NCBI GenBank assembly: GCA_913757435.1
Contig: CAJYDM010000004.1
Location: 186,001 to 250,000, forward strand
Length of the DNA stretch: 64,000 nucleotides
Direction: 5' to 3'
From: Syntrophomonas sp. DTU019
GTDB lineage: Bacteria > Bacillota > Syntrophomonadia > Syntrophomonadales > Syntrophomonadaceae
Shown here: piece after piece, positions 14,858 to 47,645 of the stretch
Layout: every line of letters starts with the position of its first letter
Numbering within the stretch: position 1 is the stretch's first letter
Notes under the pieces: generated by a model
The model's database searches: none
The model's input: only the letters and a program-made list of their open reading frames with translations
Told to the model about the DNA's origin: nothing
Position numbers and translations under genes: made by a program

Positions 14858-14863
14858 CGATGC

Positions 14864-15802: not shown

Positions 15803-15845
15803 ACGGTTACCCCCCACAAGAAATTAAAATCTCTACTTCTCTATT

Positions 15846-24610: not shown

Positions 24611-25453
24611 TTAGGCCACCTTATTGCTCATAGCAAGATAAAACAATATAAAACCAAAGGGCACTATGACCAGGGCTATTTTATCTGTAATAGATAGACT
24701 CTGGGAATACATATAGCTTCTCTGCGGATAAAGTCCAAAGCCACGGCTTTCCATTGAAATAGCTAAACTGTCCACCTTACTCAATGCGGTTATAACCAAT
24801 GGTACCAAAAGATATTTGACCGCTTTTATTAGTTTGCCTGGAGATAATCCCTCCATTTCAATCCCCTTCGCCATCTGGGCATTTTTCACCTGCTCTAATT
24901 CATAATGAAAAACCGGGATAAAGCGCAATGCGGTTATGAGCATGAACCCGAAACGGTAAGGCAATCCGGCCTGCATCAACGAATAAGTAAGCCGGTTGGG
25001 GTCAGTGGTAGCCACAAACAGATAGCTGGAACCGATAATATTAACAAAGCGCAGCATCATACTCAAGCCCCCAAAGAGGCCTTCTGACCAGATGGACAAA
25101 TTGAGCGGCCCCATATCTGCCTGCCATAGCAATCTGCCTTCTTGGATAACCAAAACCTGGATAATAAGTATAAACAATCCGAAGACCATGATAAAACGCA
25201 GCTTACGATAGAAAAAAGCCAGGCCTAAGCCAGCCAGACCGTAAAAAACCAGCATAATGGCGAATAAAATTAATCCTCCCACCCAGGTGGGCACCCCAAA
25301 AACAGTCAAGCTAAAGCTTAAGAGCATGACCAGTTTTACCAGGGGATGCAGTCTATGCACCCAAGAGCTGTTTTCTACGTAGGTTAGCCCGGGTAAAAAT
25401 CCTTTGATAATTGATGTGGTCCGTTTTTGGAAGGCATTATGGTAAGAACTCAT
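24611..25453 (-). CDS. ecfT: ECF transporter T component
   Basis: 280 residues, about six helices. It carries the coupling motifs of EcfT/CbiQ: AQMAKGIEMEG and SMESRGFGLYPQRS (the Ala-Arg-Gly-type helices that dock on the ATPases). Its ATG overlaps the stop of the ATPase gene (ATGA-type junction at 25450-25453), so it is translationally coupled. Last gene of the long minus-strand block, followed by the IS element. Confidence 0.93.
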   Translation of the reverse strand: MSSYHNAFQKRTTSIIKGFLPGLTYVENSSWVHRLHPLVKLVMLLSFSLTVFGVPTWVGGLILFAIMLVFYGLAGLGLAFFYRKLRFIMVFGLFILIIQVLVIQEGRLLWQADMGPLNLSIWSEGLFGGLSMMLRFVNIIGSSYLFVATTDPNRLTYSLMQAGLPYRFGFMLITALRFIPVFHYELEQVKNAQMAKGIEMEGLSPGKLIKAVKYLLVPLVITALSKVDSLAISMESRGFGLYPQRSYMYSQSLSITDKIALVIVPFGFILFYLAMSNKVA

Positions 25454-27021: not shown

Positions 27022-28098
27022 CTACTCTACAACCATCCGGTTAACCAGCTTTACCCAATGTCCCCCTTCATAATTACCGGCAATCAGGCGCAGCATATCA
27101 TTTTCCTTAATCAGCACCATTTGATCATCATTCAACACCTTCGGCAGATCAAATTCCACTTCATAGCCATCACTGGCCATCACTCTGAGCTTTTGAGCCC
27201 CATCCAGAGGCCTGGCTTCGGCAATGATGATCTTTAAGGGGATGCCGGTATACTCCTGGGGCGGAATGTGGCTTACCTGCCCGATCAATTCGGCAGTAAT
27301 GGTGGTTTCGTGCTGCTCAAAATAAGAAAGTTGAAATGAAAGCGGATTAGCCACGGCTCCTTCCACCTGGCAGCGCGGCCCTGTCCAGGGAGGCTCATAT
27401 ATGACCGCATAATAGTAAACCGCTCCCATAGCCAGCAGAGCCATCAAAACCCCGGTTATGGCAATCTTGACAGATGGCCGGGTTTTGGCCCTGGTACCAG
27501 TGGCTGCGGTTGCTGCAGCCATCTCTTCCTCCGCTATAGAGCTGCGAAATGGCCTGGCCTGCAGTATTATCTCCAATACGCTGTGCCCCAGACTTCCCGC
27601 CAGAAGGACGCCAGAAACAAAGGCCAACAAGCCTATAAACAATATATAAGCAATAGGCGCATGGGAAAAGTAGAGCAGTTGAAAAACAAATACATTGGAC
27701 GCAGCCGCAACTCCCCCGGCAAGTGCGTAACTCACCAAATTGTGCCGCCTGAAAACCAGGAGCACAGCATCCACCAACAAGCCCTGCGTAAATGAAACCA
27801 GAATGATAGCTACCCCATGGGTGCTGCCGGTTAAAAGCTCAATTATTCCCTTGAGCAGACCGGCGACAGTAGCAGCGCCGGGCTTTCTTATCAGTCCTGC
27901 CGCTAAAATGAACCAAAACACATGCAAACCCGATACAAACTGACCCGCACCAAAAGGAACCCCGAAAAGGCGGTTTAAAAGATTACCCAGATAACCGATA
28001 TAGGTGCTCATTACCCCGCCAATCCCGCTTAGTATAGCGATAATCAGCAGCTCCCGGTTGCCGAGGTAGTATTTTCTGCGTCTTATTTTCTCTTCCAT
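27022..28098 (-). CDS. ECF S component (YkoE-like) fused to an extracytoplasmic Oxidored_molyb-like domain
   Basis: 358 residues from ATG 28098, chosen for its GGAGG site. Residues ~15-185 are a YkoE-type S component with about six helices (LIRKPGAATVAGLLKGIIELL, FTQGLLVDAVLL). After a linker and one more helix (about 215-237), the C-terminal ~115 residues form a domain beginning CQVEGAVANPLSFQLSYFEQ and containing PLKIIIAEA, LRVMASDGYEVEF and VKLVNRMVV. That is the same reduced Oxidored_molyb-like fold as in the surface proteins of this block. YkoE partners are linked to thiamine-precursor uptake; the fusion suggests a different or extended ligand. It is 34 bases downstream of the lipoprotein gene. 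Confidence 0.8.
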   Translation of the reverse strand: MEEKIRRRKYYLGNRELLIIAILSGIGGVMSTYIGYLGNLLNRLFGVPFGAGQFVSGLHVFWFILAAGLIRKPGAATVAGLLKGIIELLTGSTHGVAIILVSFTQGLLVDAVLLVFRRHNLVSYALAGGVAAASNVFVFQLLYFSHAPIAYILFIGLLAFVSGVLLAGSLGHSVLEIILQARPFRSSIAEEEMAAATAATGTRAKTRPSVKIAITGVLMALLAMGAVYYYAVIYEPPWTGPRCQVEGAVANPLSFQLSYFEQHETTITAELIGQVSHIPPQEYTGIPLKIIIAEARPLDGAQKLRVMASDGYEVEFDLPKVLNDDQMVLIKENDMLRLIAGNYEGGHWVKLVNRMVVE

Positions 28099-28132
28099 AA
28101 CCAAGCCTCCGCTCAAAGCAGCCTTTACTCTT

Positions 28133-28693
28133 CTAATCAATACGGATAGTCTTTACATAACGAACCCAGTACGGTTTGTTCACATCACCTGGCTGACGCT
28201 GCCCAACCACCAACTGTAAAGGGCTGCCCATCTCTGAGTTCAGTTCCCTGCCGTTTTCCTCCCAGGCCAGGATAATTTTTAACCTGGATTCCGGGTTTTG
28301 TTCATCAATATAATCCTCTCTCATAATCTCTTCCAGCGAGTATTCAACCCTATAATCGTCCTCGGCGATAATGGTGACCCTGGAGGCATTAGCCTTCAAT
28401 GCTACTTTTTCATTTAAGATATATCCTATCCAGATACCTTTAAAATGGGAATATCCCTTCGTCCCGTAGGAATTGATCCCGAAATAATCGGCTTCAACTA
28501 TGCCATCTGGCATGGATTTCAATTCATCCAATGTGAAGGATACCTTATCTTCAACCGCATCCCCTTCAATAACAAGCAGACCAGAAGGGGTTTTCTCTTT
28601 AGAAGCACATCCCAACCCTGAGGTACAAATAAATAAAAGAAGCATTATCAAAATGGTTATGGTTCTTCTTTTATGCCATTCAATATTACCCAT
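28133..28693 (-). CDS. Lipoprotein with Oxidored_molyb-like domain
   Basis: 186 residues from ATG 28693, which has AGGAGG nine bases before; the frame to 28765 lacks a site. A basic start and hydrophobic helix end in a lipobox SGLGC. One Oxidored_molyb-like domain follows: LVIEGDAVEDKVSFTLDELK, VTIIAEDDYRVEYSLEEI, SPLQLVVGQ, WVRYVKTIRI. The Cys that binds molybdopterin in sulfite oxidases is not present. Probably a substrate-binding lipoprotein for the ECF transporter encoded immediately downstream. Confidence 0.8.
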   Translation of the reverse strand: MGNIEWHKRRTITILIMLLLFICTSGLGCASKEKTPSGLLVIEGDAVEDKVSFTLDELKSMPDGIVEADYFGINSYGTKGYSHFKGIWIGYILNEKVALKANASRVTIIAEDDYRVEYSLEEIMREDYIDEQNPESRLKIILAWEENGRELNSEMGSPLQLVVGQRQPGDVNKPYWVRYVKTIRID

Positions 28694-28813
28694 GCCGACT
28701 GCCTCCTGTTTGAAGATAAAAAGAACCAAGGCAGGCAAAAACAAACTGATCTGCCCATAAAACAATATTTCTTACCACTATATGCGTTTTGATGAAAGCC
28801 TGATTAAAACAGG

Positions 28814-32065: not shown

Positions 32066-35000
32066 TTATTGCAGAATCACAGGGTTATGGTCTTTAGCAT
32101 TGGTCAATTCATCCACGATATAGACCTTGATCACATCCCCGGCTTGCACATTAAAACCAGCCTGGGCAGTATCAACCTCGTCAAAGTCGGCTACAGTAGA
32201 GTTGATCTGCAACTGACTGCCATTCCTTAGATGGGTAAAGACTACGGTCTCATCGCCGCTATGAGCAAATACCGGTTCAATATTGACCGTGAAGTAATTG
32301 AACCCGGAAACTCCAGCATTAACAGTCATAGTCTTTATACCGTCCTGGGTTTCCCCTATGTCATAAGTCGAATCAGGGACAGGGGTTACTGTATAGACCG
32401 GGTTGCCGGTTGCTGCGCTTACTAACTCAATACTTACAATATTGCCGATTGAACTTGACCCGCTCACCGCAGGACCCACCAGGCGCAACGGCCATTTGTC
32501 ATCAGTTTCGGGAATGGGGAATTCATCAAGCAGGTTGGCAATAATGTAGTCACTATTACGGATAATGTCGGCACTATCTATAGTTACTGTAGCACCATCA
32601 CCAGCCGTAATTACAACCTGGTACCCTGATTGAGCCAGTTCATCATTGAAGGCCTCATTAGAATGCTGGTCGGCATCATCAACAAATCCCACCAGGAACC
32701 AGAGGGGCATGCCTTCCCACTTACGTCCTTTAGTATCGGTGTAGCTTGCCTTGTGATTGGCACCGAACTGGCAGGCAAGAGCTGTTTCAAAATAGGTTTT
32801 GCTGATATCACTACTTATACCACCAATTTTGGTTCCATCCAGCTCCAGTTTCCAATCACCCTGGGGTACGGTGTATACTCTGATGGTAGTAATATACTTC
32901 GCGGACAACCCGGCACAGGAAGGATACATGATTTTATTATCTTCGTAGTAATGCCAGTATGCTTCCGGAAGAGTCTCGTGCATATCCATTTGATGATATA
33001 CTTTGTCTTCTGGTGTAAAGTACAAGCGCATACCATCTTTATAGTTCGGAACATAATCACCGTCAGCATACCAGGCTAAAATAGCATCCCCCTGGCGGGC
33101 ATATACTGATGGATCAGGATATATGGATGAATAAGGAAGCCTGGTCTCATAGCCATCAGAAGCTACCAAGACGATTTCTGTGCCGGTTCCCATGTCACCG
33201 ACAAGGCTGCAGAGATCACTCAGGCGGGTGCCTTTAATCGCATTGGCTATCTTGTAACCACCCAGACCGGTCTCATTCTCATCCCACATATCATCCGGGT
33301 CAAAGGTGACTCCCTGGAATTTGTATACTGTTTCTCCGTCTCCAATCACATCGAATTGCTCTATCATGTCAAGATAATTGAGGGTCTCTTCAGCTATGAT
33401 GGTGGTCCCGTCCTCTCCATACTTTACAATCCGGAGATCAGGGATGGCACCGCTGCTCTCAAAGGAGGTCAGCTCGATTTCGGCTATCTTTCCTACGCTT
33501 TTACCGGTCAGGGCTCCTGCATTGGCAACACCAGAACCTACCAGGCGCAGCGGCCAGGTATCAGTAAGCTCGGCACCATTGCATTTGTTCGCAATGATAT
33601 AGTCGCTGCTCCTATTGATATCCAGACTGTCGAAATCAACACTATAGCCGTCTGAAGCCTTTACCAGAACTTTGTAACCGGCTACAGCCTGGCTAAAGTC
33701 ATAACTGTGAGGCTGACGGTCATCTACCCAGCCGGCCAGTAACCACAGGGGTATACCTGACCAGACATTTCCATCCCCGTCAATCCATTCTACCAGGTGA
33801 CCCGAATTCGGGCAGGCAAGCCCTTCTTCGAATTCCGCCTGGGAAATCACATCACTGATCTTACCCTTCAGAGTGAGGTTCCAACTACCGGGCTCTGCCG
33901 GCGGGGTCTGCAGTTCAAGAATCTCAATGCGGGCGATATTGCCGACTGCCAAGCCACCAAGGGAACCATCATCTTTAGTAACACCGTCACCTACCAGGCG
34001 TAGAGGTGCTGAAGTGCCTGTCAGTGGCTCACCATCGCATTTGTTAGCCACGATATAATCATTGCTGTTGGCTACATCCGAACCAGCAAAAGTCTTGAAG
34101 TAAGTTCCACTTCCATCAACTACCTTCACGGTGTAGTTTTTAGCCCGAGTTTCATTAAATGTCCAGTGATTGCCGCTTTCGATGTCATCCACTGCACCTA
34201 AGAGCACCCACAGTGGAACACCGGACCATGTATTGTCATTAATGTCGGTCCATTCTTGGTAGTGACCAGAGCCAGTACATGCCAGTCCTTCTTCAAACTC
34301 TTTCTGGGTGATGGTATCCCCGATTTCCCCAATCATTTCCAGGGTCCATCCAGCGGGCGGCTCAGGCAGACCAGACAGCTCAATGCGGACTATATTGCCT
34401 ACCTGTTGCCCACCCGAGATAGCTGAACCTTTCAGATGCAGCGGCCAGCAGTCTTTATTCTTGTCACCGATTGTAAGGGGCAGTGGTTCCCCGTTTAACG
34501 TATTAGCAACGATATATGCGTCGCTGCGAGCGATATCAGCACTGTCAAGTACTGTTGACCAGCCATCGCCTGCTATAACCTTTACTTCATAGCCTGCGGC
34601 GGCCAGTTCATCATTGAAGTTAAAATGTCCGTCATCAGGATCATCATCTACGATACCAACTAACAGCCACAGGGGCATGCCTCCCCAGACGTTACCTTCA
34701 TCATCAGTCCAGGTCGCATAGTGTGATGAAGAACAGGTCAACCCTTGCTCGAAGTAAGCCTTGGTAACGGTCTCATCCTTGGCCCCGGAAAGCTGCAGGG
34801 TCCAGTCGGTAGGCACCACACCGTTAGTAACGGTGGTTTTCACCGCTGCTGTGGCTGCTGCCTTAACCGCATTAAAGTCGCTCTCATCTTCAACATCCGC
34901 ATAATAGAATTCGACCTTGTTACCATCTGCCAACTGCATCAGGTTTAAAGCATCATCAGGATTGTTATAGCCATCTTTTAAAGCGCCGTTTACATAGGCA

Positions 35001-38000
35001 TACCATGCGCTGCCGTTTTTCACATAATTGTATTCGGCTACATTATCCAGCAGCAGGGCACCGGAATTGCCATAATTCTTATCGGTAACAGCGTAGGTGA
35101 ATCCGCCAGCGATTGCGGCTTTGTGCAGCGCACCCAGTGGCGTGTTCTCATTCACCGTGTATTCCGTCTCTGAGTTGTAGGCGGTTACTGTGAATGCCTC
35201 TTCCGGATCCAGGTTTACGGTTCCGTCATAAAGAACATCAATAGTGGATAATGACACCACCGTCTTAACAGCTGCAGTTGCTGCTGCCTTGACTGCATTA
35301 AGGTCGGTGGGGTCGGAAATATCGGCTGCATAATAAAACTCAACCTTGTCTCCATCGACCAGCTCAATGACATTCAGTCCAGCGGGCGTATTCTGATACC
35401 CATCTTTGTAGACATCATTTACATATGCATACCAGTATCCCGGAGATTTGCGTTCGTACTCTCCTACATCGTCCAGCAGGAGTACCCTGTCATAGGACCA
35501 GCGCTTGTCAGACAAAACATAGGTAAAACTACCGGCCTCGGCGGCTGCCTGCAGGGCTCCCAGCGGGGTATTCTCATCAATTGTATATTGATTAGATCCA
35601 ACCGTTACTGTGAAGGTCTCCTCAGGATTCAATGTAACTGTACCCTCATAGAGGATGTCAATTGTCGGTCCACCAGAGCCTTCTACAACAGTTACAGTTA
35701 TCGAATCGGTTTTATTCCCGTCTTCGGTTGTAACCGTAATACTAGTAGTACCTTCTGCTACTGCGGTTACCAGACCGGTTGCACTTACCGTAGCCACAGC
35801 TTCATCAATGCTGCTCCAGCTTACATTCTTGTTAGTGGCATCCTCAGGTTCCACCACAGCAGTTAGCTGGACTGTCTGGCCAGTTTCCAGTTCTTGGTTG
35901 CCTTCCGTAATGCTCACGCCGGTAACGGGTATCGATGGTGGAGTGTTTACAGTGAATACAGCAAACATGGTATTGGGAGCAACTGTCGTACGTACATTAT
36001 AAGTACCGGCGGGCACTTCTGGAACAGTAATGGAGACCGGAGATATAGTGCCACTGGCATCAGTGCTTACATCTGCCCTGGGCTCATCCTCGTTCCAAGT
36101 GCCGTCATCGTTAGAGTCAAACCAAATATACTTGCCGGTTTGATTAGTCACTAAACCGTAACCTGTAACATCTATGCTGCTGCCAACTATCCCCGAGCCA
36201 GGATTCAGTACCAGGCCAGCAATCAAATATGTTACTGAATTAGCTTTGAGACCACAGGCCGGTATATCTGCCAATACCTGATATAGGCCCGGTGGTGCCG
36301 ATGGTACATACAGGCCGGGGCTACTGGCTCCCCCAGCAGTTGTGGTTGTTACTGCTGCCTTATTCTCGTCTTCATCCCAAACTTCGTTACCATTAGTGTC
36401 AAACCAGACATATCCGTCAACATTGGCTGAAAAACCTGCCAGATTCATACCGATATTGGTTTCGGGGTTACCTCTGGGAGTGGAAATTTTAATACCTGGA
36501 ACAATACCGATGCTGGCACAAGCCTCTATAGTATCATCGCGACCAATGTCAAGAAGGATGTTGTAGATACCTGTCGGCGATGATGGCCAAGACATATTAT
36601 TTACTGATATTGTACCCTCAGCTGATGTATTACTAGACTTGTAACCGCCATCATCGTATATCCCGTTGCCATTACGGTCTACAAAAAGCCGGTAGGGAGT
36701 ACTGGCCGGAAAACCGTTTCCGGTAACTGTGATATATCTAGGAGTTGTTCCCTGCTCCAAGCTGTTTCCATATTTTGGGCTAACGATTATGCCACTTCCG
36801 GTGACAGTAAATACGGCGCTAGCTTTAATACCGCCTATATCTGCCCGCACCGTATAATCTCCCGTGCTTACTGACGGAACAGTCAGGCTTGTGAGCAGGG
36901 GAATAGCTCCATCTTCGTCAGTATTTACAGCAACTGACGGTTCTTCATCGTCAAAGACTTCATTATCGTTTATGTCAAACCAAATAACTCCAGCAGCTCC
37001 AGCATTAAAGCCGCTGATGGAAATGAACGTGGTCGCCCCCGGGATTCCGGAATTGCATTGCAACTGTATCTGTGGACCAGCCGGAATCGAGTTGACAGTG
37101 ATGCTGTCGGTGAAGTTGCCATCTTCGGTTGTAACCGTAATGCTGGCAGTACCTTCTCCTACTGCAGTCACCAGGCCGGTTTCACTTACCGTTGCCACAG
37201 TTTCATCACTGCTGCTCCAGGTTGCGTTCTTATTCGTAGCATCCTCAGGCTCCACAACTGCAGTTAGCTGGAATGTCTGACCAATCTCTAATTCCTGATT
37301 ACCTTCGCTTATGCTCACGCCGCTAACAGCTACTGGCGGTGGAGTGATAACCCCATCCTGCCAAGCTCCTATCAAGGGATAGTTGTCACTATAGCTGGCA
37401 ATGGTGGTGTATGGAGTATCTGCTATACCGTTACCATCGTTATCAGCTCCGGTATAATCGCTCCAGTAATTGCCGAGTTGGCTGCTGTACTGAGTACCCT
37501 TGTAGGTGTAGCTTATCTCAGTTGAAGAATTCCAGGAGTTTTCGGTATTGCCATTAAATCCTTCGGACAACTGAGTTGTATTATCCCTAAAGTTATTCTG
37601 ATAGAATATGTTGCCAACTGGTTTAGTGGCAAGTTCCAAACCGGTGGTATTGTTGGAGATAATATTATTATTGAAAGTATTGGTATCAGCAGCTTTAATT
37701 CTGATACCCATTTGGTTTGAATCTAATGTATTGGAACTAAAAATATTGCTGTCAGTACTGTCAAAAAGGTTCAAACCTTTCCCTGATTGGTTGTTTGCAC
37801 AAGTGTTATCGCTTATAGTGTTACCGGCTGCATAGCTAAGATAGATACCGTCGCTGCCACAGACATTACAGGTGTTGTTGCTAACCGTATTGTTATTACT
37901 GTTAACGGTTATTCCTCGATTATTATTACTAAAAACATTATTCGTTATCGTACAAGATCCGCTGGGCTGACCTGAAATGTAAGTAAGTTTTATGCCCGAT

Positions 38001-39577
38001 TTGTCTGTTCCTGTTGCTCCGGAAGCCGTAAACCCTTCAATAGTGACGTTTGCGGCAGTCACCTTAAATACATCGGCATTTGTATTGGCTGCCTGTACTA
38101 TAGTCTGCGCTGCCCCGTTCTCAGACTCAATGACCAGGCTCTTATCCACGGTTATGTTCTCAGTGTATGTCCCGTCTTTTACGATGATGGTATCACCAGC
38201 ATTGGCTGCTGTGACAGCATCCTGTATTGTGCTGAAGTCAGCTCCGCCGGAATCATCTACATACCAGGTCTGGGGCGCTGGATCTGTAACCGTGATGTAG
38301 CCCTCTTTGATTTCCTCATCACTGTCCAGATCACTGGTTACGGTAAGTTTGACCGTGTATGTTCCCACTGCGGTATATTCATAGAAAGGATTCTGTTCAG
38401 TACTATCTACTACGCCATCATTGTCAAAATCCCAGGCCCATGAAGTGGGGTTTCCAGCTGACTCATCGGTGAATTGTACCGTAAGGGGTGCTGGGCCACT
38501 GGTTTTATCGGCACTAAAAGCAGCCGTAAGCAAAATCGGTGCTGCATCCATTGACTGAGTTACGGTAGCCATGCTGTACCCCTGGGCACTGACTGCTACC
38601 TTATAATCACCGGGAGTATTAAATACGTCTGCATTTATACTGATAGTTGCTTCGCTGATGGAATACTGTCCTTCAGTCAACTGTTTTCCATTAACCGTAA
38701 TACGGCTAATACCTGTTCTCCAGCCCTCATCATCAGTGAAGGTGATGTCTGCTGCCTGGCCAATTTGGTTATTTTCTGTATCGGCAGTCAGATCTGGAGG
38801 TGTTAGTACTGTCTCATTACTGTATATGTTTATAAAAGCTACGTTCTGTACTGATAAACCGGTGGTGGTAGGATATTCACCGGAGTAGTAGTACCAGTAT
38901 TGAGAATCTGCAGCCTCATGCCATTCCCAGTTGCCAAATACGTGGTAATCCCCTGAAGGTAAACCCGCAACATCAGTCGGTCCTTCTTTAGATGAAGCTG
39001 CGGCAAACCAGACCAGGCGCATGCCGTCGGTGTATCCGCTATCTGGATGTTTTCCGTCCTGATACCAGCAGACCACCATTGGCCCTTCGCGATCCGGATC
39101 ATAATTGTAAACGTTTTTATAGGCGAATCTTTTCTTAAAGCCATCAGAGGCTTTTATTTCTACCTCTTCACCATCTGCCATACCTCCTACCAAATTGCAG
39201 AGGTGCTTCAAGTTATTACCCTTCACCGCCCCCATATCTTTGGTATCCCAGTTCCTATCTTCTTCCTCGTTCCAGCGAAGCCGCTCTAGCTCCTCCGGAT
39301 CATCAGCAGGTTCATCAATAAAGACCGGGCCCTGATGATAGTAACGGGTTTCCCCATCACCCAGTACTGGTATATTGTCTGGGTCCATCAGCCAGTGATA
39401 ATCAACTTTAAGCTGGTCAATTATAGTTTTACCATCCTCAGCATACTTGGTAATGGTGAGTTCAGTAGTTGCCGCACTGGCTGGCTCAGGTACCACCATA
39501 CCTGCACACTGGAATAGGAACGCGAAAACTAACGCAATAGTTAGGCTTTTTCCCCAACCTTTTTTCTTAAAAAACAT
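32066..39577 (-). CDS. Giant secreted multidomain protein (2503 aa)
   Basis: Signal peptide 1-36. Domains in order (approximate residues): large Oxidored_molyb-like domain 38-255; DUF1533/Shr haem-interacting-like 261-345; PKD 350-435; NosD-type beta-helix 437-740; Big_2 746-830; four related Ig/IPT-like repeats from 832, 927, 1026 and 1121; Big_2 1219-1300; two DUF4430 (transcobalamin C-terminal-like) domains 1306-1410 and 1442-1545; three Oxidored_molyb-like domains from about 1590, 1742 and 1896; a second copy of the N-terminal type from 2044; another from 2239; and a C-terminal domain 2412-2503 shared with the phosphoesterase. No SLH repeats, LPXTG or C-terminal membrane helix. It looks like a large extracellular binding scaffold. 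Start ATG 39577 has AAAGGAG; a riboswitch-like leader with terminator lies 105-255 bases upstream. Confidence 0.88.
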   Translation of the reverse strand: MFFKKKGWGKSLTIALVFAFLFQCAGMVVPEPASAATTELTITKYAEDGKTIIDQLKVDYHWLMDPDNIPVLGDGETRYYHQGPVFIDEPADDPEELERLRWNEEEDRNWDTKDMGAVKGNNLKHLCNLVGGMADGEEVEIKASDGFKKRFAYKNVYNYDPDREGPMVVCWYQDGKHPDSGYTDGMRLVWFAAASSKEGPTDVAGLPSGDYHVFGNWEWHEAADSQYWYYYSGEYPTTTGLSVQNVAFINIYSNETVLTPPDLTADTENNQIGQAADITFTDDEGWRTGISRITVNGKQLTEGQYSISEATISINADVFNTPGDYKVAVSAQGYSMATVTQSMDAAPILLTAAFSADKTSGPAPLTVQFTDESAGNPTSWAWDFDNDGVVDSTEQNPFYEYTAVGTYTVKLTVTSDLDSDEEIKEGYITVTDPAPQTWYVDDSGGADFSTIQDAVTAANAGDTIIVKDGTYTENITVDKSLVIESENGAAQTIVQAANTNADVFKVTAANVTIEGFTASGATGTDKSGIKLTYISGQPSGSCTITNNVFSNNNRGITVNSNNNTVSNNTCNVCGSDGIYLSYAAGNTISDNTCANNQSGKGLNLFDSTDSNIFSSNTLDSNQMGIRIKAADTNTFNNNIISNNTTGLELATKPVGNIFYQNNFRDNTTQLSEGFNGNTENSWNSSTEISYTYKGTQYSSQLGNYWSDYTGADNDGNGIADTPYTTIASYSDNYPLIGAWQDGVITPPPVAVSGVSISEGNQELEIGQTFQLTAVVEPEDATNKNATWSSSDETVATVSETGLVTAVGEGTASITVTTEDGNFTDSITVNSIPAGPQIQLQCNSGIPGATTFISISGFNAGAAGVIWFDINDNEVFDDEEPSVAVNTDEDGAIPLLTSLTVPSVSTGDYTVRADIGGIKASAVFTVTGSGIIVSPKYGNSLEQGTTPRYITVTGNGFPASTPYRLFVDRNGNGIYDDGGYKSSNTSAEGTISVNNMSWPSSPTGIYNILLDIGRDDTIEACASIGIVPGIKISTPRGNPETNIGMNLAGFSANVDGYVWFDTNGNEVWDEDENKAAVTTTTAGGASSPGLYVPSAPPGLYQVLADIPACGLKANSVTYLIAGLVLNPGSGIVGSSIDVTGYGLVTNQTGKYIWFDSNDDGTWNEDEPRADVSTDASGTISPVSITVPEVPAGTYNVRTTVAPNTMFAVFTVNTPPSIPVTGVSITEGNQELETGQTVQLTAVVEPEDATNKNVSWSSIDEAVATVSATGLVTAVAEGTTSITVTTEDGNKTDSITVTVVEGSGGPTIDILYEGTVTLNPEETFTVTVGSNQYTIDENTPLGALQAAAEAGSFTYVLSDKRWSYDRVLLLDDVGEYERKSPGYWYAYVNDVYKDGYQNTPAGLNVIELVDGDKVEFYYAADISDPTDLNAVKAAATAAVKTVVSLSTIDVLYDGTVNLDPEEAFTVTAYNSETEYTVNENTPLGALHKAAIAGGFTYAVTDKNYGNSGALLLDNVAEYNYVKNGSAWYAYVNGALKDGYNNPDDALNLMQLADGNKVEFYYADVEDESDFNAVKAAATAAVKTTVTNGVVPTDWTLQLSGAKDETVTKAYFEQGLTCSSSHYATWTDDEGNVWGGMPLWLLVGIVDDDPDDGHFNFNDELAAAGYEVKVIAGDGWSTVLDSADIARSDAYIVANTLNGEPLPLTIGDKNKDCWPLHLKGSAISGGQQVGNIVRIELSGLPEPPAGWTLEMIGEIGDTITQKEFEEGLACTGSGHYQEWTDINDNTWSGVPLWVLLGAVDDIESGNHWTFNETRAKNYTVKVVDGSGTYFKTFAGSDVANSNDYIVANKCDGEPLTGTSAPLRLVGDGVTKDDGSLGGLAVGNIARIEILELQTPPAEPGSWNLTLKGKISDVISQAEFEEGLACPNSGHLVEWIDGDGNVWSGIPLWLLAGWVDDRQPHSYDFSQAVAGYKVLVKASDGYSVDFDSLDINRSSDYIIANKCNGAELTDTWPLRLVGSGVANAGALTGKSVGKIAEIELTSFESSGAIPDLRIVKYGEDGTTIIAEETLNYLDMIEQFDVIGDGETVYKFQGVTFDPDDMWDENETGLGGYKIANAIKGTRLSDLCSLVGDMGTGTEIVLVASDGYETRLPYSSIYPDPSVYARQGDAILAWYADGDYVPNYKDGMRLYFTPEDKVYHQMDMHETLPEAYWHYYEDNKIMYPSCAGLSAKYITTIRVYTVPQGDWKLELDGTKIGGISSDISKTYFETALACQFGANHKASYTDTKGRKWEGMPLWFLVGFVDDADQHSNEAFNDELAQSGYQVVITAGDGATVTIDSADIIRNSDYIIANLLDEFPIPETDDKWPLRLVGPAVSGSSSIGNIVSIELVSAATGNPVYTVTPVPDSTYDIGETQDGIKTMTVNAGVSGFNYFTVNIEPVFAHSGDETVVFTHLRNGSQLQINSTVADFDEVDTAQAGFNVQAGDVIKVYIVDELTNAKDHNPVILQ

Positions 39578-39681: not shown

Positions 39682-39720
39682 GTGAATAAAAAATCCGACT
39701 GCAAAGAAATCAGCCGGACG
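39682..39720 (-). terminator. Leader terminator before the giant gene
   Basis: On the minus strand TCCGGCTG and CAGTCGGA pair (8 bp, one G-T) around a 9-base loop, followed by TTTTTTATT. It follows the aptamer-like leader directly and precedes the gene by about 105 bases, so it should act as an attenuator. Confidence 0.75.
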
Positions 39721-39832
39721 CTACTATCCGTTATGACTCCTTTCCAACAGGGGAGGCACACTCGTTTCCAGGTGAACCCTAACGGCCTGAGAACCATAGT
39801 ATCAACCTTAGGCATCACAAGCTCGGAGCAAT
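39721..39832 (-). promoter_or_regulatory. Riboswitch-like leader, Moco/Tuco type (copy 1)
   Basis: Minus strand, 5' to 3': GCTCCGAGCTTG, TGATGCCTAAGG, AGGCCGTTAGGG, a GGAAAC-capped hairpin, TGCCTCCCC, GGAAAGGAGT and TAACGG closing on CCGTTA. The same blocks in the same order occur at 47861-47972, also before a surface-protein gene and also with a terminator. The CUCCGAGC...GCCUCCC...GAAA...GGAGU order resembles the molybdenum/tungsten-cofactor riboswitch as I remember it; the class assignment is inference, the shared leader is directly visible. Confidence 0.55.
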
Positions 39833-39838
39833 ATTTTT

Positions 39839-41167
39839 TTATCGGGTAATAGTTATCTGACCACCATTGGGGTCATATACCACCTCCGCTTCCAGAGTCT
39901 CACTTATAAACCGCAGGGGAACAAAAGTACGACCAGGTGGCAGAATCTCAGGAGCACAGTCAATAGTCTGTTTTTCACCGTTGACCTGAACCTGGTTGGA
40001 ATCAATAGTAAGGATAATTACCTTATCACCATAAGTAATGGTTACCTGTCTGCTTTCAGGGTTCCAACCAACTTTAGCACCTAAGGCTTCACCTACGAAA
40101 CGCACCGGTACCAGTGTACGACCGGCTTCAGCGTTGATGAACGGCTCAGCTTCCAGGATATAGGGGGTGTCGTTAACACTAGCTGCTTTTGCACCAATGG
40201 CAAGCTTAATCATCAGTGGTAGACTACCTGATGACCCGTCAGCAATCCGATATTCAAAGGTGACCACATCGCTATCCAACTTCCCGGGACCAATGGTAAC
40301 AGCCTTGATGGTTACGTTTTCAGTGATAGGCCCTATAGGGCGGTTGATATTACCCAAAACATCAGCCCGGGCTGTCCACCACCGGCTGGCGATCCAGTTA
40401 TATATAGGGCTGTTCATTGTTGGGATGCTGCCATCAATGGTGTAATGGATCTTATCATCATCACTATGAATATTGCTCAAAGCCACCATAGTTCCTGGAG
40501 GAACTGTGCCGCCAACCGGGTTGGCCTGAGGAGCATCCCACTTTTCGGGCGGGGTGGTTAAGACCTCAATTTTACTGAGATACTTTACAAACAAATTTCC
40601 GGTCTGCTCAGTAACCGTGCGCTGACCCAGCATCAGTAAGAGGGAGTTCAAATCGTTCATATATTTGGGATTATCGCTTCCTTCTACACTGATCAAGCCG
40701 ACAATTGGTTCTACCTCCACCTTCCCCGAGGGGTTGCCGGGCGAATGCCCATCAGCATCACCACCAGTTTTGAAATTCGGGAAACGATAACGCTTATCCT
40801 CGAATAGTTCTTTGACCGTGATGGTGACGGTATAACCATCGGCAGAGGTGAATCTAAGCAAAGTAGCCTCATCACGTATACCTGCCTGGTTTAGCAGTTC
40901 ATGCAGTTTGACACCCTCTCCTACATACCACTTTTTAGTAGGCCAGGTGTTTATGCAGCTATATACATACTGATGCTGCTCCATTTGCCTAAGTTGATCC
41001 AGGCTTAATACTAATGGCTTTTCCACCCCATCTCCGGTGATTTCCAGAGCATCTGATGCAGCTAATACTTCGTTTGGTGATGCAAGACAAATACTAGCAG
41101 CCAGCAACAGAATACTCAGTAGGGCAATAGTAAAACCAAAGAAACTCCTTTTTGCTCTGGTTGGCAT
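39839..41167 (-). CDS. Surface protein: Oxidored_molyb-like, chitobiase-like and copper-amine-oxidase N domains
   Basis: 442 residues. Signal peptide 1-37. Oxidored_molyb-like domain about 38-215 (LEITGDGVEKPLVLSLDQLRQM, YSCINTWPTKKW, GVKLHELLNQAGI, FTSADGYTV, KYLSKIEVL). A chitobiase C-terminal-like module follows (KIHYTIDGSIPTMNSPIYN), and then the stalk-type domain TLVPVRFVGEALGAKVGW...VPLRFISETLEAEV, which in Firmicutes often binds the cell wall. The motif YSCINTWP retains a Cys near where molybdopterin is bound in sulfite oxidases, unlike most siblings. Start ATG 41167 with AGGAGG. The gene ends just before the leader RNA of the giant gene. Confidence 0.87.
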   Translation of the reverse strand: MPTRAKRSFFGFTIALLSILLLAASICLASPNEVLAASDALEITGDGVEKPLVLSLDQLRQMEQHQYVYSCINTWPTKKWYVGEGVKLHELLNQAGIRDEATLLRFTSADGYTVTITVKELFEDKRYRFPNFKTGGDADGHSPGNPSGKVEVEPIVGLISVEGSDNPKYMNDLNSLLLMLGQRTVTEQTGNLFVKYLSKIEVLTTPPEKWDAPQANPVGGTVPPGTMVALSNIHSDDDKIHYTIDGSIPTMNSPIYNWIASRWWTARADVLGNINRPIGPITENVTIKAVTIGPGKLDSDVVTFEYRIADGSSGSLPLMIKLAIGAKAASVNDTPYILEAEPFINAEAGRTLVPVRFVGEALGAKVGWNPESRQVTITYGDKVIILTIDSNQVQVNGEKQTIDCAPEILPPGRTFVPLRFISETLEAEVVYDPNGGQITITR

Positions 41168-41239: not shown

Positions 41240-41548
41240 TTATTCGGTCAGCATGAATAACTTTCCGGTTGCGGGGTCTCTGTAAACCGTGCCCATTCTC
41301 TCGTAGACCTCGCCCTGGCCCTGAGTTTTGATCAGATCTTCACGTATCTCTGGGGCATCGGTCATCTCCCGGCCTTGTTCCAGGTTAACTCTCTGCCCCA
41401 CACCAAAATCAACGTTCCAGTTAATAGCCAGGGCCAGCATCAAACCACAGGCAAAAACCAGCATGGCATCAACAATATTGATGGCGCCCTCCAGAGGATT
41501 TACTTCTTCTTGCCTCCAGCGGCTATTTCTCCTCAATCCTCCGCGCAC
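41240..41548 (-). CDS. DUF2149 protein (ExbD-like partner)
   Basis: 102 residues, one transmembrane helix (NIVDAMLVFACGLMLALAI) near the N-terminus followed by an outward-facing tail. NPLEGAINIVDAMLVFACGL is the DUF2149 signature. In methanogens DUF2149 genes accompany MotA/TolQ/ExbB-type channel genes and metal-related genes. The size and topology mimic ExbD/TolR. GTG 41548 lies inside the channel gene with GGAGGTG nine bases before, so translation is coupled by a 26-base overlap. Confidence 0.85.
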   Translation of the reverse strand: MRGGLRRNSRWRQEEVNPLEGAINIVDAMLVFACGLMLALAINWNVDFGVGQRVNLEQGREMTDAPEIREDLIKTQGQGEVYERMGTVYRDPATGKLFMLTE

Positions 41549-42173
41549 GTTCCAACACCTCCGTTAGACTTTCCATTATGGCTTCCAAGGTACTCAAATA
41601 ATCTTCATACCATCTTTTGCGATACCGGGAGACAGCAAAAGCAATACCTCCGGCAGCCAAACCGGTTACTGTAGCATCAAAGGCAGTAAGCAGTGAATCG
41701 GCCAGTATTCTGGGATCGCCCTCACCCAGAGCTATCAAACCTGGTCCTAGTGGAATCAAAGTTGCCATTAACCCCAACATAGGACCGAGTCGGGTTACCA
41801 GATCAGTTCGATTAGTGATTCGTACATAATTCAATTCTTCGCTAGTCAACAGCCGACGCGCCAAAGCCTGCATTGAAGCAGACGGCAAATCTTTATTTTG
41901 GATCAATTCGCTGATGGCAGCCTTTTGGCGTCGGAATAACCGAATGCCTTCAACCTGTTTAATGATTTCTGCAACATCTTTTTCCTGAAATGTATTGATC
42001 AACTCGGGCAAATTGACCTTCATCTGGCGCCGTTCGGTCAAGGCTTCTACTAAGAGACCGCCCAATTCCATCAATGATAAAGCTAACATGAATAACAGTA
42101 CGGCAATGGTAGGTATTAATAAACCGGATGAAATGGCATGCATCATATCCTTTAACGGCAGTAAGATAGTCAT
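41523..42173 (-). CDS. MotA/TolQ/ExbB-like proton channel
   Basis: 216 residues, three membrane helices (about 15-40, 130-150, 165-185) with a cytoplasmic helical loop between the first two. The conserved core LGPMLGLMATLIPLGPGLIAL and LADSLLTAFDATVTGLAAGGIAFAVS matches the TolQ/ExbB/MotA family, which uses the proton gradient to move a partner protein. Three bases separate it from the upstream proline-rich surface protein and its end overlaps the DUF2149 gene: a three-gene energising unit. Confidence 0.9.
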   Translation of the reverse strand: MTILLPLKDMMHAISSGLLIPTIAVLLFMLALSLMELGGLLVEALTERRQMKVNLPELINTFQEKDVAEIIKQVEGIRLFRRQKAAISELIQNKDLPSASMQALARRLLTSEELNYVRITNRTDLVTRLGPMLGLMATLIPLGPGLIALGEGDPRILADSLLTAFDATVTGLAAGGIAFAVSRYRKRWYEDYLSTLEAIMESLTEVLERARRIEEK

Positions 42174-42176
42174 GTT

Positions 42177-43808
42177 CTATAATCGCTCCTTCGTATATTG
42201 CACATATTTATTGCCAGCTCCTGAAAGCAAGCACATCGTGAGCATTATGGCGGAGTAAATCTTCATCCGATCCTGGGCTTCTGTTAGCGGCAGAGGTATG
42301 GTATCGGCTGACATTTCAAACAGCTGCTGATTATCCATGATCGGCTGGGAGGCAGTATCCAGATTAGAATCTATAGCCAGGTCCTTAATATTAGCTAGGA
42401 TTTGGGCTCGCTCTTCCGGTATCGATGACTGGGGAGGAAGGGTTGCCTCCGTGGAGGCATCAGGATTAGGAGCAGAGCCGATCTCTGCATTGGGCTCCGG
42501 TTGTGGGAGCTTATCATTAGAAGGCTCCGGGGGTTTGGGCTCGGTACTATTTGCTGCTGGAGTATCTTCCTCAGCTTGCTCCTCGTCCGGTCCGTTCACA
42601 ACACAGTAAGCAGTGTAATTGCCATCCACTGTAGTAACAGTAATGACAGCCGTTCCCGGGCCAACCACTGTAACCAGACCGCGATTGTCTACGGTGGCGA
42701 CTCTGGTATCACTGGAACTCCAGATCAAATCCTGATTGGTGGCATTGAAGGGAGTCACTGTCGCCTCCAACCGAAATGTGCTTCCAACCGGTAAATCGAT
42801 TCTATTCCTATCAAGGGAAATTCCGGTAGGCGGACCACCCGGAACTTTGGTCGGATCTACCGCCTTGCCGCTCATATCAGCGGTGAATTTAAATGTAACC
42901 ACTTCGCTGTCCAGCTTGCCGGGTCCAATGGTTATCATTTTAATGATAGTGTCTTCTTTTACTTCAATGGGTTTATTGACACCTTTGACATCACCGTGCT
43001 GATCCCACCAGCGACTGGAACTCCAGTTGAACATAGGACTATTGATGGTCGGAGTGCTGCCATCAGTAGTGTAGTAAATCTTATCCTCGTTGTTATTCTT
43101 ATTGCTCAGTTCGATCTGGGTTCCTACCGGCAAAACTGTTCCACTTGGTATATTGGCTTTGGGGCTTTCCCATTTTTCGGGAGTAGTAGTAAACACCTCG
43201 ATCCTGCTTATGTACTTTAAAAAAAGATGGTTAGTCTGTTCAGTGACTGCCCGCTGCCCTAATACAAGCAGTAATGCGTCTCGATCGTTCATGGCAGACG
43301 GGTCATCACTGCCCTCGGCACTGACCAGAGCCAGAATGGGTTCTACCTCTTCAGCGTCCCGTGGAGATCCGGGAATACTCCCGTCAGTAGGATGATTATC
43401 CTTTAAACCTGGAAAATAGTAACGTTTGTCTTGTAATAGTTCTTTGACGGTGAGAGTCACCTCATAACCATCACTGGATATGAACTTGACCAGTGTGGCG
43501 TCCTCCTTTATCCCAGCCTGATCGAGCAATTCCCTTAACTTAACCCCTCGGGCCATATACCAGCGCTTGGTAGGCCAGGTATTGATCACACTATAGATGT
43601 GCTCATACTGCTGCATCGCTTCGATTTGACTCATTGACAGAGTGAGCGGGTTAGCCACACCCTCTCCACTGATCTCAATGGTGCCTGCAGCTTCGGCTGT
43701 AGGACAATTCATCAAAACTAAGGCAATCAAAAATAATATTAATAGCAGCGGGGCAATTACCAAGAGCTTGATTCTGGTCTTGGTTAAACCGGTATCATTC
43801 ACAATCAT
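42177..43808 (-). CDS. Membrane-anchored surface protein with proline-rich stalk (TonB-like topology reversed)
   Basis: 543 residues. Signal or anchor helix 13-40; Oxidored_molyb-like domain about 42-220 (IEISGEGVANPLTLSMSQIEAM, GVKLRELLDQAGI, FISSDGYEVTL); chitobiase-like module (KIYYTTDGSTPTINSPMFN); Big_2 domain about 330-410; a Pro/Glu/Ser-rich stretch about 410-470 (EPKPPEPSNDKLPQPEP); and a C-terminal hydrophobic helix (IYSAIMLTMCLLSGAG) with a basic end. The order is ligand-type domain, proline stalk, membrane helix, followed in the operon by ExbB-like and DUF2149 genes. That is the part list of a TonB system with the anchor at the other end. ATG 43808 has GGGAGAG. Confidence 0.85.
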   Translation of the reverse strand: MIVNDTGLTKTRIKLLVIAPLLLILFLIALVLMNCPTAEAAGTIEISGEGVANPLTLSMSQIEAMQQYEHIYSVINTWPTKRWYMARGVKLRELLDQAGIKEDATLVKFISSDGYEVTLTVKELLQDKRYYFPGLKDNHPTDGSIPGSPRDAEEVEPILALVSAEGSDDPSAMNDRDALLLVLGQRAVTEQTNHLFLKYISRIEVFTTTPEKWESPKANIPSGTVLPVGTQIELSNKNNNEDKIYYTTDGSTPTINSPMFNWSSSRWWDQHGDVKGVNKPIEVKEDTIIKMITIGPGKLDSEVVTFKFTADMSGKAVDPTKVPGGPPTGISLDRNRIDLPVGSTFRLEATVTPFNATNQDLIWSSSDTRVATVDNRGLVTVVGPGTAVITVTTVDGNYTAYCVVNGPDEEQAEEDTPAANSTEPKPPEPSNDKLPQPEPNAEIGSAPNPDASTEATLPPQSSIPEERAQILANIKDLAIDSNLDTASQPIMDNQQLFEMSADTIPLPLTEAQDRMKIYSAIMLTMCLLSGAGNKYVQYTKERL

Positions 43809-43982: not shown

Positions 43983-46900
43983 CTATAAAGCGTTGATGAA
44001 AACCGTGACTGCCTCAGCCCGGGTGGCATTTCCCTGGGGCCGCACCGTGTTATCAGGATATCCCTTGATAATTCCGTTCTTCACTGCTGTTGCTAAAGAT
44101 CCTCTAGCCCAAGGTGAGATACTGCTTTGGTCTTTAAATGACAATTGTTCCATTACCGGAGAAAACTTAGCCGCCTTCACTATCATGTGAGCCATTTGCT
44201 CGCGAGTAATATATTCATCGGGGCCGAATCTGTTATCGCCATAGCCCTCTACTACACCGTGATATGCAGCAGTAGATATGGCCTCCTCAGCCCAGTGGCC
44301 GGCAGTGTCAGCAAAGCCTTCCCCACTATGGGATTCCAGTCTGAATGCTTTCACTAGTATTGAAGCGAATTCCGCCCTGGTAATGCTATTGTCCGGCTTA
44401 AAGGTTCCATCAGGATAACCGCCTATAGCCCCGAGCGCAACTAATTGTTTTATATTGCCTTCCGCCCAGTGACCGCCAATATCGGTTAATGCAACCTGAA
44501 CCGTATCTGCTGCCATTACGGTAAATTTCGTAAAGTGGCTCACTTGCACAGTGATGGTATTTTTCGACACCTTGCCGCCGATGTCGACCCATCTTTTCTG
44601 GTCTTCATCATAGTAGTAAATAGCTGGGGTACTCTTAGAACTGACCTTTTCAGTATCGAATGCAAGCTTAAGCGTTACCGGTTTACCAAAGTCATATTTG
44701 CTTCGGCCGTCCACACTGAATTCATATACCGCGGAAATCACCTTAAAACCGTCCGGTGCAACAGGCGGTTTACTCACCCGCTCTATTTTCACTTCCACTG
44801 AGCAGGTTCCGTTCAATGCTCCGGCAGGAATTTCAATGACGGCTTCTTCTGCGAGTTTCACAATACCTCCGTCACTCGGTTTAATTAATTTAGTCACTAC
44901 TGGGTCACCGGCCACCATTATGGCAAACATAGTAAAGTGATCCACCTCAACACTTATGGTATTACCGGCTACCTTGCCACCAATATCGATCCACTTCTTT
45001 CCTTTCTGGTCATAATAGTGGATAGTCGGGGTTTCATCAGAGGCCAACTTTTCTGAATCGAATGTCAGCTTGATGGTAACCGGTTTATTAAAGCTGTAAT
45101 TACCCTCTCCGTCTATACTAAACTCATATACTCTGCCAAGAATTTTAAATCCAAAAGGTGCAGCCGGAGGCTCACTCACCCGTTCTATTTTCACTTCTAC
45201 TGGACTACTACCAGTTAAGGCTCCGCCGGGAATCTCAATGACGGCTTCCTCTCCCAGGCTTACCGTTCCCCCTTCATCGGGTTTTATCTTATCGCTGGTA
45301 TTTACCGTTCCTGTAACCTTATAGGTAAATTCGGCCACAGCGCTGTTCAACTTACCGGGACCTATGGTGATAGCTTTTATGGTAGTATCTTCAGTCACCA
45401 CTATGGGCTTATTGATTTCTTTAACAGCATCCTTGCCCCTAGAACTCCACCACCGTTTGGCTACCACGTTATAAATCGGACTATTCAGATCGGGGATGCT
45501 GCCATCAATGGTATAGTGGACCTTATCTTCATCATCATATGGACTATGCAGTTCTACCTCCGTTCCTGCCGGTACGTTTCCGGGGCTCGGATTGGCGGTG
45601 GGCTTGGCCCAAGATTCTGGGAAATCGGTGAGTACTTTTATTTCAGATACGTATTTTACAAACAGCGGCCCGGTTTGCTCGGTAACCGCTCGCTGGCCCA
45701 GCATCAAGAGCAATGCGTTGCTGTCGTTCATATAGCTCGGGTCATTAGTACCATCTGCGCTGAGCAAAGCCAGCATGGGCTCGACTGGTGTCGCGCCTGC
45801 GGCAGAACCTGGAATATGCCCGTCGGCATCGTCATCACCGCTTTTGAAGTTGGGAAAGCGATAACGCTCATCCCTCAGCAGTTCCTGAACCGTAAATGTC
45901 GTGTAATAGCCATCACTGGACATAAACCTGATCTGCTGTGCGCTTCCTTTTATCCCTACTGTATCGAACAAATCACTCAGTTTAACCCCTTTCCCCACAT
46001 ACCATCGCTTGGAGGGCCAGGTGTTAATACTACTGTAAACCTCCTGGTACTGGGGCATAGCTTCCAACTGGGACTGGGTAAACCCCTGCGGATTGGTTAC
46101 CCCATCCCCGGATATGGTTAATACAATTTTCCCGTCAGGTGGTTTGGTATCACCACTACTGGTAATCTTCTGCGTAACCACGGCATCCAGATAACCAGTG
46201 GCAATAACGATTATGGTGTAGTCGCCCTTGCTGGTGAATACCCCAAAATTAATAGTTATTACACCAGGACCGATGCTGTATTTGCCGGTAATAGGGCTTC
46301 CATTTACCGTCACTCCGGTAATGGCCTGACGCCATGATTCATTATCAGCAAAAGTCAGTTCTATGTCATTACCCACGGTGTTGTCTGAATTATCAGCGGT
46401 CAAGGTTGGAGGAGTATGGGCTTCAGTAACCAGCAGAGTAAAAGTAAAACTGTCGGTATTCCCATCACTATCGGTTACTGTCATCGTAAAGGTAAAAGTA
46501 CCGCTTTGGGTAGGTGTGCCTTCCAGAGTTGCTCCCTTCAGAATCATACCTTCGGGCAGTGAACCCTCCGTAATAGCAAAGCTATACGGCTCTATACCGC
46601 CTGCTGCCGTGAAGCTATGACCGGCATAAGCCTGGTTGAGGATAGCATTAACCAGGTTGTCCTTACTGATAGTAAGAGGTATAAAATACTCGAAAGTGGC
46701 AATTTCACTATCGGCCCGGCCAGGACCGATTACAATGGCCTTAATGGTGGTATTATCTGTTATCTCAATAGGGCGGTTTATTTCATCCAAATCATCCGCT
46801 CTTGAAGACCACCAGCGATAAGCGACCAAGTTGAACATTGGGCTTTCTATGGTTGGGTCACTGTCATCCAAGGTATAGTGAACCTTGTCTTCATCATTAT

Positions 46901-47645
46901 CAGTACTGTACAGTTTCACCAGGGTACCTGCCGGAACCTCACCGGGCGCTACTGACGCAGTGGGGGGAGCCCATTGAAGTACGCTATCAGTAAGTACTTC
47001 AATCTTTGTTACGTATTTGGCAAACCTGGCATTGGTCTGCTGGTTTACTGTTCGCTGCCCGTATAAGAAAAGATTGGCGTCAGCCCGGCTGAAATTGTCC
47101 GCATCTGTAATCACTTGGTAATCATTGGAGGAAATACTCCGGTGGGCAATAATAGCTGGCACCTGTTCAGCATCTGAGGCATCACCTATGAGATGACCAG
47201 CCAAGCCACTATCCATGAAATTAGGGAAGCAATACCGGGGTTCGCCCAAGAGATCCTGTATGGTAAAGGTAGCTTCAAAGCCGTCTCCTGAACTAATCTT
47301 TATCAGAGTAGCCTGGTCATTAATTCCTCCAGCCACATCAAGCAGCTCTTGCAGTGTTACACCTTGCCCCCTGTACCAGCTCTTGGTAGGCCAGGTGTTA
47401 ATGGTGCTGAAAATAATATCCTGCTGCTCTAAACAATAATCATCATATATTGGTACTTCACCCTGAAGCTGCTCCTGGGTAATGGTTACGCCATCAGGGT
47501 TATTCAGCCCCGGCCCCGATATGGTAATATTGCCACCGGCGGCATAAGCGGGGTCGGGTGCCAGTAAACTCACCAAACCAACGACTAACAGCCCTATAAA
47601 AATTAACGAAACAGGGTTTTTCCATATTTTATTTGCAGTACTCAT
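43983..47645 (-). CDS. SLH-anchored surface protein with two Oxidored_molyb-like domains (1220 aa)
   Basis: Signal peptide 1-36. Domains in order: Oxidored_molyb-like about 37-235 with a chitobiase-like module (KVHYTLDDSDPTIESPMFN); a He_PIG-type Ig domain (EPYSFAITEGSLPEGM); a DUF1533/Shr-like domain; a second Oxidored_molyb-like domain about 510-690 with chitobiase-like module; two ZU5-like domains (GGTVSLGEEAVIEIPGGAL and GGIVKLAEEAVIEIPAGAL); and three SLH repeats at the C-terminus (HWAEGNIKQLVALGAIGGYPDG, then HWAEEAISTAAYHGVVEGY, then WARGSLATAVKNGIIKGYPD). It should be bound to the cell wall via SLH. Start ATG 47645 follows GGAGGATGA. It heads the transcription unit and has a riboswitch-like leader and terminator. 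Confidence 0.88.
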   Translation of the reverse strand: MSTANKIWKNPVSLIFIGLLVVGLVSLLAPDPAYAAGGNITISGPGLNNPDGVTITQEQLQGEVPIYDDYCLEQQDIIFSTINTWPTKSWYRGQGVTLQELLDVAGGINDQATLIKISSGDGFEATFTIQDLLGEPRYCFPNFMDSGLAGHLIGDASDAEQVPAIIAHRSISSNDYQVITDADNFSRADANLFLYGQRTVNQQTNARFAKYVTKIEVLTDSVLQWAPPTASVAPGEVPAGTLVKLYSTDNDEDKVHYTLDDSDPTIESPMFNLVAYRWWSSRADDLDEINRPIEITDNTTIKAIVIGPGRADSEIATFEYFIPLTISKDNLVNAILNQAYAGHSFTAAGGIEPYSFAITEGSLPEGMILKGATLEGTPTQSGTFTFTMTVTDSDGNTDSFTFTLLVTEAHTPPTLTADNSDNTVGNDIELTFADNESWRQAITGVTVNGSPITGKYSIGPGVITINFGVFTSKGDYTIIVIATGYLDAVVTQKITSSGDTKPPDGKIVLTISGDGVTNPQGFTQSQLEAMPQYQEVYSSINTWPSKRWYVGKGVKLSDLFDTVGIKGSAQQIRFMSSDGYYTTFTVQELLRDERYRFPNFKSGDDDADGHIPGSAAGATPVEPMLALLSADGTNDPSYMNDSNALLLMLGQRAVTEQTGPLFVKYVSEIKVLTDFPESWAKPTANPSPGNVPAGTEVELHSPYDDEDKVHYTIDGSIPDLNSPIYNVVAKRWWSSRGKDAVKEINKPIVVTEDTTIKAITIGPGKLNSAVAEFTYKVTGTVNTSDKIKPDEGGTVSLGEEAVIEIPGGALTGSSPVEVKIERVSEPPAAPFGFKILGRVYEFSIDGEGNYSFNKPVTIKLTFDSEKLASDETPTIHYYDQKGKKWIDIGGKVAGNTISVEVDHFTMFAIMVAGDPVVTKLIKPSDGGIVKLAEEAVIEIPAGALNGTCSVEVKIERVSKPPVAPDGFKVISAVYEFSVDGRSKYDFGKPVTLKLAFDTEKVSSKSTPAIYYYDEDQKRWVDIGGKVSKNTITVQVSHFTKFTVMAADTVQVALTDIGGHWAEGNIKQLVALGAIGGYPDGTFKPDNSITRAEFASILVKAFRLESHSGEGFADTAGHWAEEAISTAAYHGVVEGYGDNRFGPDEYITREQMAHMIVKAAKFSPVMEQLSFKDQSSISPWARGSLATAVKNGIIKGYPDNTVRPQGNATRAEAVTVFINAL

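Follow-up and report, generated by a model that had tools for sequence, protein, structure and literature searches.

A Hmu-type ExbB-DUF2149 pair beside a C-terminally anchored, sulfite-oxidase-fold surface protein and Moco/Tuco riboswitches in Syntrophomonas

Described systems and layout of the locus

The Hmu heme system of Bacteroidota (HmuYRSTUV) contains an ExbB-like channel (HmuU) and a DUF2149 protein (HmuV) encoded in tandem, of which HmuV has been viewed as ExbD-like (PMC10100974). HmuS of the same system is a CobN-like, extracytoplasmic heme de-chelatase with N- and C-terminal transmembrane (TM) helices, and HmuUV is assumed in the literature to power the outer-membrane receptor HmuR through TonB (PMC12583661, PMC13227078). 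Related CobN-DUF2162-ExbB-DUF2149 operons with cobalamin riboswitches occur in Firmicutes and on Trichlorobacter plasmid pGLOV01. The TonB-ExbB-ExbD and TolA-TolQ-TolR systems combine an ExbB-family channel, a small partner whose single TM helix carries an aspartate, and an elongated third component.

The window analyzed here, 64,000 nucleotides of a contig from Syntrophomonas sp. DTU019, one of the fatty-acid-consuming anaerobes, carries a tightly packed minus-strand unit of three genes at positions 43808-41240. These genes encode a surface protein, referred to here as the client (42177..43808, 543 amino acids [aa]), an ExbB/TolQ-like and HmuU-like channel (41523..42173, 216 aa), and an HmuV-like, ExbD-sized DUF2149 protein with a GTG start (41240..41548, 102 aa). 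The client and channel genes are separated by 3 nt, and the channel and DUF2149 genes overlap by 26 nt. Scans for terminators and promoters gave results at chance level.

Like Hmu, the unit has the channel and DUF2149 genes in tandem and an extracytoplasmic client with a C-terminal TM anchor. The CobN/HmuS chelatase, HmuT/DUF2162, HmuY, and the TonB receptor of Hmu are absent from the unit, which is distinguished by a surface client with a sulfite-oxidase fold and by Moco/Tuco (molybdenum/tungsten cofactor) riboswitch control. The CobN-DUF2162-ExbB-DUF2149 operons share with it the motor pair and a C-anchored client that bears the [FY]E[IM] motif and a glycine at the aligned TM position but differ in their chelatase-type client, DUF2162 in place of an ECF importer, cobalamin riboswitch, and separate motor clade. 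No CobN was detected between positions 27000 and 50000 of the window. The components common to the TonB and Tol systems are also recognizable in the unit, which differs in its C-terminal anchor and in having no TonB_C domain, ExbD family protein, receptor, or outer membrane markers.

An initial annotation had described a TonB-ExbB-ExbD-like unit with a reversed anchor, and its outline was borne out, with open reading frames (ORFs) and Pfam agreeing on three abutting or overlapping genes for a surface protein, an ExbB/TolQ-like channel, and DUF2149. The TonB label was not upheld. The annotation had also missed that the client has a sulfite-oxidase fold, that riboswitches for Moco or the tungsten cofactor are present, and that a sister system exists with CobN and cobalamin riboswitches.

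The channel-DUF2149 pair and its C-anchored client

The channel matched MotA_ExbB (PF01618; 26.8 bits, cut-off of 22.9), and the product of the third gene matched DUF2149 (39.4 bits, cut-off of 27.1), in agreement with the ExbB-like channel and ExbD-sized partner proposed earlier. Pore threonines T138 and T168 of the channel align with T148 and T181 of Escherichia coli ExbB and were 98 to 100% conserved among 90 ExbB-like sequences. The acidic residue anticipated in the single TM helix of DUF2149 (the Asp of NIVDAM) is Asp27, which was invariant in 89 sequences. Judged by eye, the DUF2149 segment NIVDAMLV resembles FIDVMLV of ExbD. A profile of the 89 sequences showed no link to the single E. 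coli ExbD sequence (probability, 0.1) and no match to PDB sequences; because the profile alignment was negative, the case for kinship between DUF2149 and ExbD is made by their size and topology, by the aspartate, and by how HmuV has been viewed in the literature. The ExbB and DUF2149 pair is the HmuU and HmuV pair already described from the Bacteroidota heme operon. The conservation of the pore threonines and TM aspartate makes it very unlikely that the pair is a static membrane anchor, or an export or assembly factor for an S-layer protein, that leaves the proton gradient unused, a reading compatible with the papers covered, in which no report was found of a DUF2149 pair tested biochemically.

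The client was assigned an Oxidored_molyb domain (25.2 bits, cut-off of 24) together with Fn3_assoc and Big_2 domains in Pfam. Its AlphaFold model comprised an N-terminal helix at residues 8 to 32 (signal peptide), folded domains at 43 to 404, a disordered Pro/Glu-rich stalk at 409 to 508, and C-terminal helices at 508 to 528 and 531 to 542, in keeping with the reversed anchor of the initial annotation. Sulfite dehydrogenases and YedY were among the best Foldseek matches. Unlike enzymes of the sulfite oxidase family, the client lacks the Moco-ligating cysteine and has Y-S-T/V-I-N-T-W at that site (alignment consensus, site placed by eye); because this cysteine is missing, the domain may be unable to bind the cofactor in the manner of an enzyme. 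The Oxidored_molyb domain was undetected in 32 of 75 clients compared.

The C-terminal region was the conserved part of these 75 diverse clients, some as low as 17% identical to that of the window, in that Gly530 in the C-terminal helix was the sole invariant column. A juxtamembrane [FYW]E[MILVAF] motif (FEM in the window) was present in 56 of the 75 and in all 9 intact CobN clients, compared with 3 of 56 control proteins with two terminal helices. CobN clients of other Firmicutes had a juxtamembrane [FY]E[IML] motif and membrane helix in common with the client, and the motif appeared as VEGFEMKE in Trichlorobacter CobN; it was not clear in HmuS of Bacteroidota. A search of the window's genome with the client C-terminal profile found no further clients. 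Another genome (G023) encodes a second client with the C-terminal module (L186, 9189-10919) with no ExbB or DUF2149 gene nearby, and this client may share the motor in trans.

The three families also occurred together across genomes, as the initial annotation had predicted. Among 119 DUF2149 loci, which include copies of one another and come from relatives that are not fully independent, an ExbB gene lay directly upstream of DUF2149, nearly always overlapping it, in all but about six. Wherever the gene upstream of the pair was readable in a non-CobN locus, its product nearly always ended in a C-terminal helix. A profile of the last 58 client residues was searched against 61 relatives, and the client module and DUF2149 were found in the identical 11 genomes, with none containing the module only and one (G047), whose client is of the CobN type, containing DUF2149 only (Fisher's exact test, P = 3e-11, with shared ancestry as a caveat). 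In the channel tree, the CobN and Hmu types grouped in a single clade with strong support, and almost all of the other sequences fell outside it. One sequence labeled Parabacteroides (L129) grouped with Firmicute sequences and is probably from a misbinned contig. An ExbB-DUF2149 pair of the CobN clade (L054, 9807-10157) had no recognized client within 20 kb.

No TonB_C domain was matched in the client by Pfam. No ExbD family protein (PF02472) was found in 27 DUF2149-containing Firmicute genomes (G000, that of the window, and 26 others), and neither Omp85 (PF01103) nor a TonB receptor (PF00593) was found in 13 genomes. The window's genome encodes one other MotA_ExbB protein besides the channel of the unit. 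On plasmid pGLOV01 of Trichlorobacter lovleyi, the pair and CobN adjoin a separate, complete ExbB-ExbD-TonB set: one gene run (L178, 5486-15468) contains cobalamin riboswitches, a TonB receptor, DUF2162-ExbB-DUF2149-CobN, and then the canonical ExbB-ExbD-TonB genes, so that two proton motors lie side by side. Because ExbD, Omp85, and TonB receptors were absent from the genomes tested and a separate TonB set is present on pGLOV01, the ExbB/DUF2149 pair probably does not serve TonB. A plain TonB unit was ruled out by the C-terminal anchor together with the absence of TonB_C, ExbD, and receptor or outer membrane markers.

Riboswitches, surface proteins, and importer genes around the unit

Two Moco/Tuco riboswitches flank the unit on the operon strand. 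The first (RF01055; 47863..47981, minus strand) lies upstream of the operon and scored 75.6 bits (cut-off of 36), and the second (39720..39840, minus strand) scored 68.7 bits. Both are without the P3 stem, an aptamer form that has been associated with the tungsten cofactor (Regulski et al. 2008, PMC2408646). Covariance model searches detected 40 Moco/Tuco elements in 24 of 79 non-CobN loci, all 40 on the strand of the unit, and the element was upstream of the unit in 21 of the 24; about two thirds of the non-CobN loci had none in the DNA examined. None was found in 18 loci of the CobN type or containing CobN. Cobalamin riboswitches were present in nine CobN loci and, by Rfam, in 0 of 19 non-CobN sources. 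Because Moco elements were absent from CobN loci and cobalamin riboswitches were found only there, riboswitch type tracks client type, with cobalamin riboswitches accompanying CobN and Moco/Tuco riboswitches accompanying sulfite-oxidase-fold or related clients. Since the window's genome (3.2 Mb) has 12 Moco-type elements, one such element beside the unit could be a chance neighbor, but a pair of them in the 8.3 kb surrounding a single unit would not be expected. Riboswitches of other classes were a c-di-AMP riboswitch in the window (5370-5499, minus strand; 99.9 bits) upstream of the gene at 4027-5328, and a c-di-GMP-I riboswitch at a related locus (L027, 1252-1336), where it separates DUF2149 from the following surface gene; in the window, nothing but a short gap lies at this place.

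Genes for further putative surface proteins occupy the same strand. An S-layer surface protein (43983..47645) contains two sulfite-oxidase-like/Fn3_assoc units, Shr-like_HID, and three SLH domains in Pfam, and another surface protein (39839..41167), of a type that adjoins the unit in many relatives, contains a sulfite-oxidase-like domain, Fn3_assoc, and Cu_amine_oxidN1. A stand-alone secreted or lipoprotein-like protein with the sulfite-oxidase fold is encoded at 28133..28765. The largest, a 2,503-aa surface protein (32066..39577) under its own Moco/Tuco riboswitch, contains Shr-like_HID, PKD, a NosD beta-helix, Big_2, two SLBB/DUF4430-like repeats, and at least four Cys-containing sulfite-oxidase-like domains; the cysteine is kept at the Moco-ligand position in four of these.

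The SLBB/DUF4430-like and Shr-like domains raise the question of whether such proteins bind tetrapyrroles, with corrinoid or heme as the ligand handled and Moco/Tuco as a regulatory signal only. A B12-related role has been proposed for fusions of SLBB and sulfite-oxidase-like domains in Syntrophomonas (Burroughs et al. 2007, PMC1796856), and the sister motor clade serves CobN/HmuS. Against these points stand the lack of cobalamin riboswitches in the 19 non-CobN sources, nearly all of which are also missing CobN, and the DUF4430 match in the 2,503-aa protein, which was only sub-threshold; corrinoid or heme handling is accordingly regarded as quite unlikely.

At one related locus (L018, 14660-17970) and its near-copy (L021), genes for FMN_bind, NosR-like Fer4, and ApbE lie beside the unit, which suggests a linked electron-transfer branch. 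A unit that is part of an extracellular redox chain, its client exchanging electrons with other surface proteins, would fit these genes, but none of them was found next to the unit in the window, their occurrence was limited to one clade, and the client keeps no cysteine at the metal-ligand position. Such a chain appears highly improbable.

The ECF importer noted by the initial annotation is located downstream of the unit on the minus strand, with genes for all of its parts: a YkoE-like S-component (27022..28140), an ATPase with two ABC domains (25450..27021), and a CbiQ T-component (24611..25453). The importer resembles the ECF vitamin transporter with YkoE in its S-component fold (PDB 5edl; TMt, 0.78) and in having the A and T components alongside. 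Unlike YkoE, the S-component has one more TM helix and ends in a sulfite-oxidase-fold domain, which is predicted to be extracellular by helix count. S-component genes were present in 22 of 56 long non-CobN loci but in none of the 8 long CobN loci, and DUF2162 showed the converse distribution (0 of 56, window included, versus 7 of 8). The S-component gene directly follows DUF2149 in nine loci (L016, L061, L067, L089, L092, L096, L112, L118, and L128). Elsewhere in the window (12979-15817), a gene for a MOT1-type molybdate transporter is convergent with genes for an NMT1-type ABC transporter.

Other Moco-riboswitch sites of the same genome (L172, L173, L174, and L176) precede genes that, named by sequence reading, encode TupABC-like, NMT1-type, and FecBCD-type ABC importers, as well as TiaS-like, TrmO-like, and FmdE-like proteins and small C-anchored proteins in which the juxtamembrane motif is absent. 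The presence of these oxyanion-type importers, and the client without a catalytic cysteine, would be consistent with the same motor and client handling an oxyanion (tungstate or molybdate) or metal chelate, with the sulfite-oxidase fold a mere scaffold. The same regulon, however, already has these dedicated oxyanion importers, and a vitamin-type, YkoE-like S-component joined to a Moco-fold domain suits an organic cofactor better, so that an oxyanion cargo is considered unlikely.

Proposed mechanism and implications

The reading somewhat favored here is that the unit is a Hmu-type proton motor acting on a C-anchored surface receptor for Moco/Tuco or its metal, which feeds the importer; in this scheme, the physical contact, the use of protons, the direction in which work is done, and the substrate are all putative. 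The channel and DUF2149 would act on their own C-anchored surface client and not on TonB. The sulfite-oxidase-fold (Moco-binding-fold) ectodomain would be held on a flexible stalk within the cell wall, with the C-terminal helix of the client docked on the channel. Protons crossing the ExbB-like pore by way of Asp27 in DUF2149 would move or strain this helix, and the strain could pass along the stalk to the ectodomain to perform conformational work, such as opening, reloading, ligand uptake or release, or hand-over to the S-component. The operon would be switched by the cell's own tungsten/molybdenum cofactor, and the S-layer proteins and YkoE-like ECF importer would gather Moco/Tuco, its pterin, or the metal that it carries and bring this cargo into the cell. 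As a matter of speculation, the Cys-free client and the Cys-keeping domains of the 2,503-aa protein would fit a relay between binding proteins. Obligate scavenging of the cofactor was ruled out, because the window's genome encodes MoaC.

A broader and distinctly more tentative claim is that the locus represents the first bacterial system dedicated to taking up the tungsten/molybdenum cofactor in intact form, or its pterin, and is composed of Moco-fold receptors, a Hmu-type motor with a C-terminally anchored client, and an ECF importer. More generally, ExbB-DUF2149 would then be a cofactor-handling motor (for heme, corrinoid, or Moco) whose direct client is a C-anchored protein and not TonB. 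In the part of the literature covered, no report was found of a link between DUF2149 and Moco, of DUF2162, or of a bacterial Moco importer.

Syntrophic anaerobes and relatives with abundant Moco riboswitches make up most of the carriers of the unit. The locus also hints at a way in which the molybdenum/tungsten cofactor might be taken up. For gut and oral Bacteroidota, the role that has been assumed for HmuU/HmuV is open to a testable revision, in which the pair would power HmuS and not TonB. The findings suggest that, where cells lack an outer membrane, proton motors of the ExbB/ExbD kind may act on surface proteins by way of a C-terminal rather than an N-terminal anchor.
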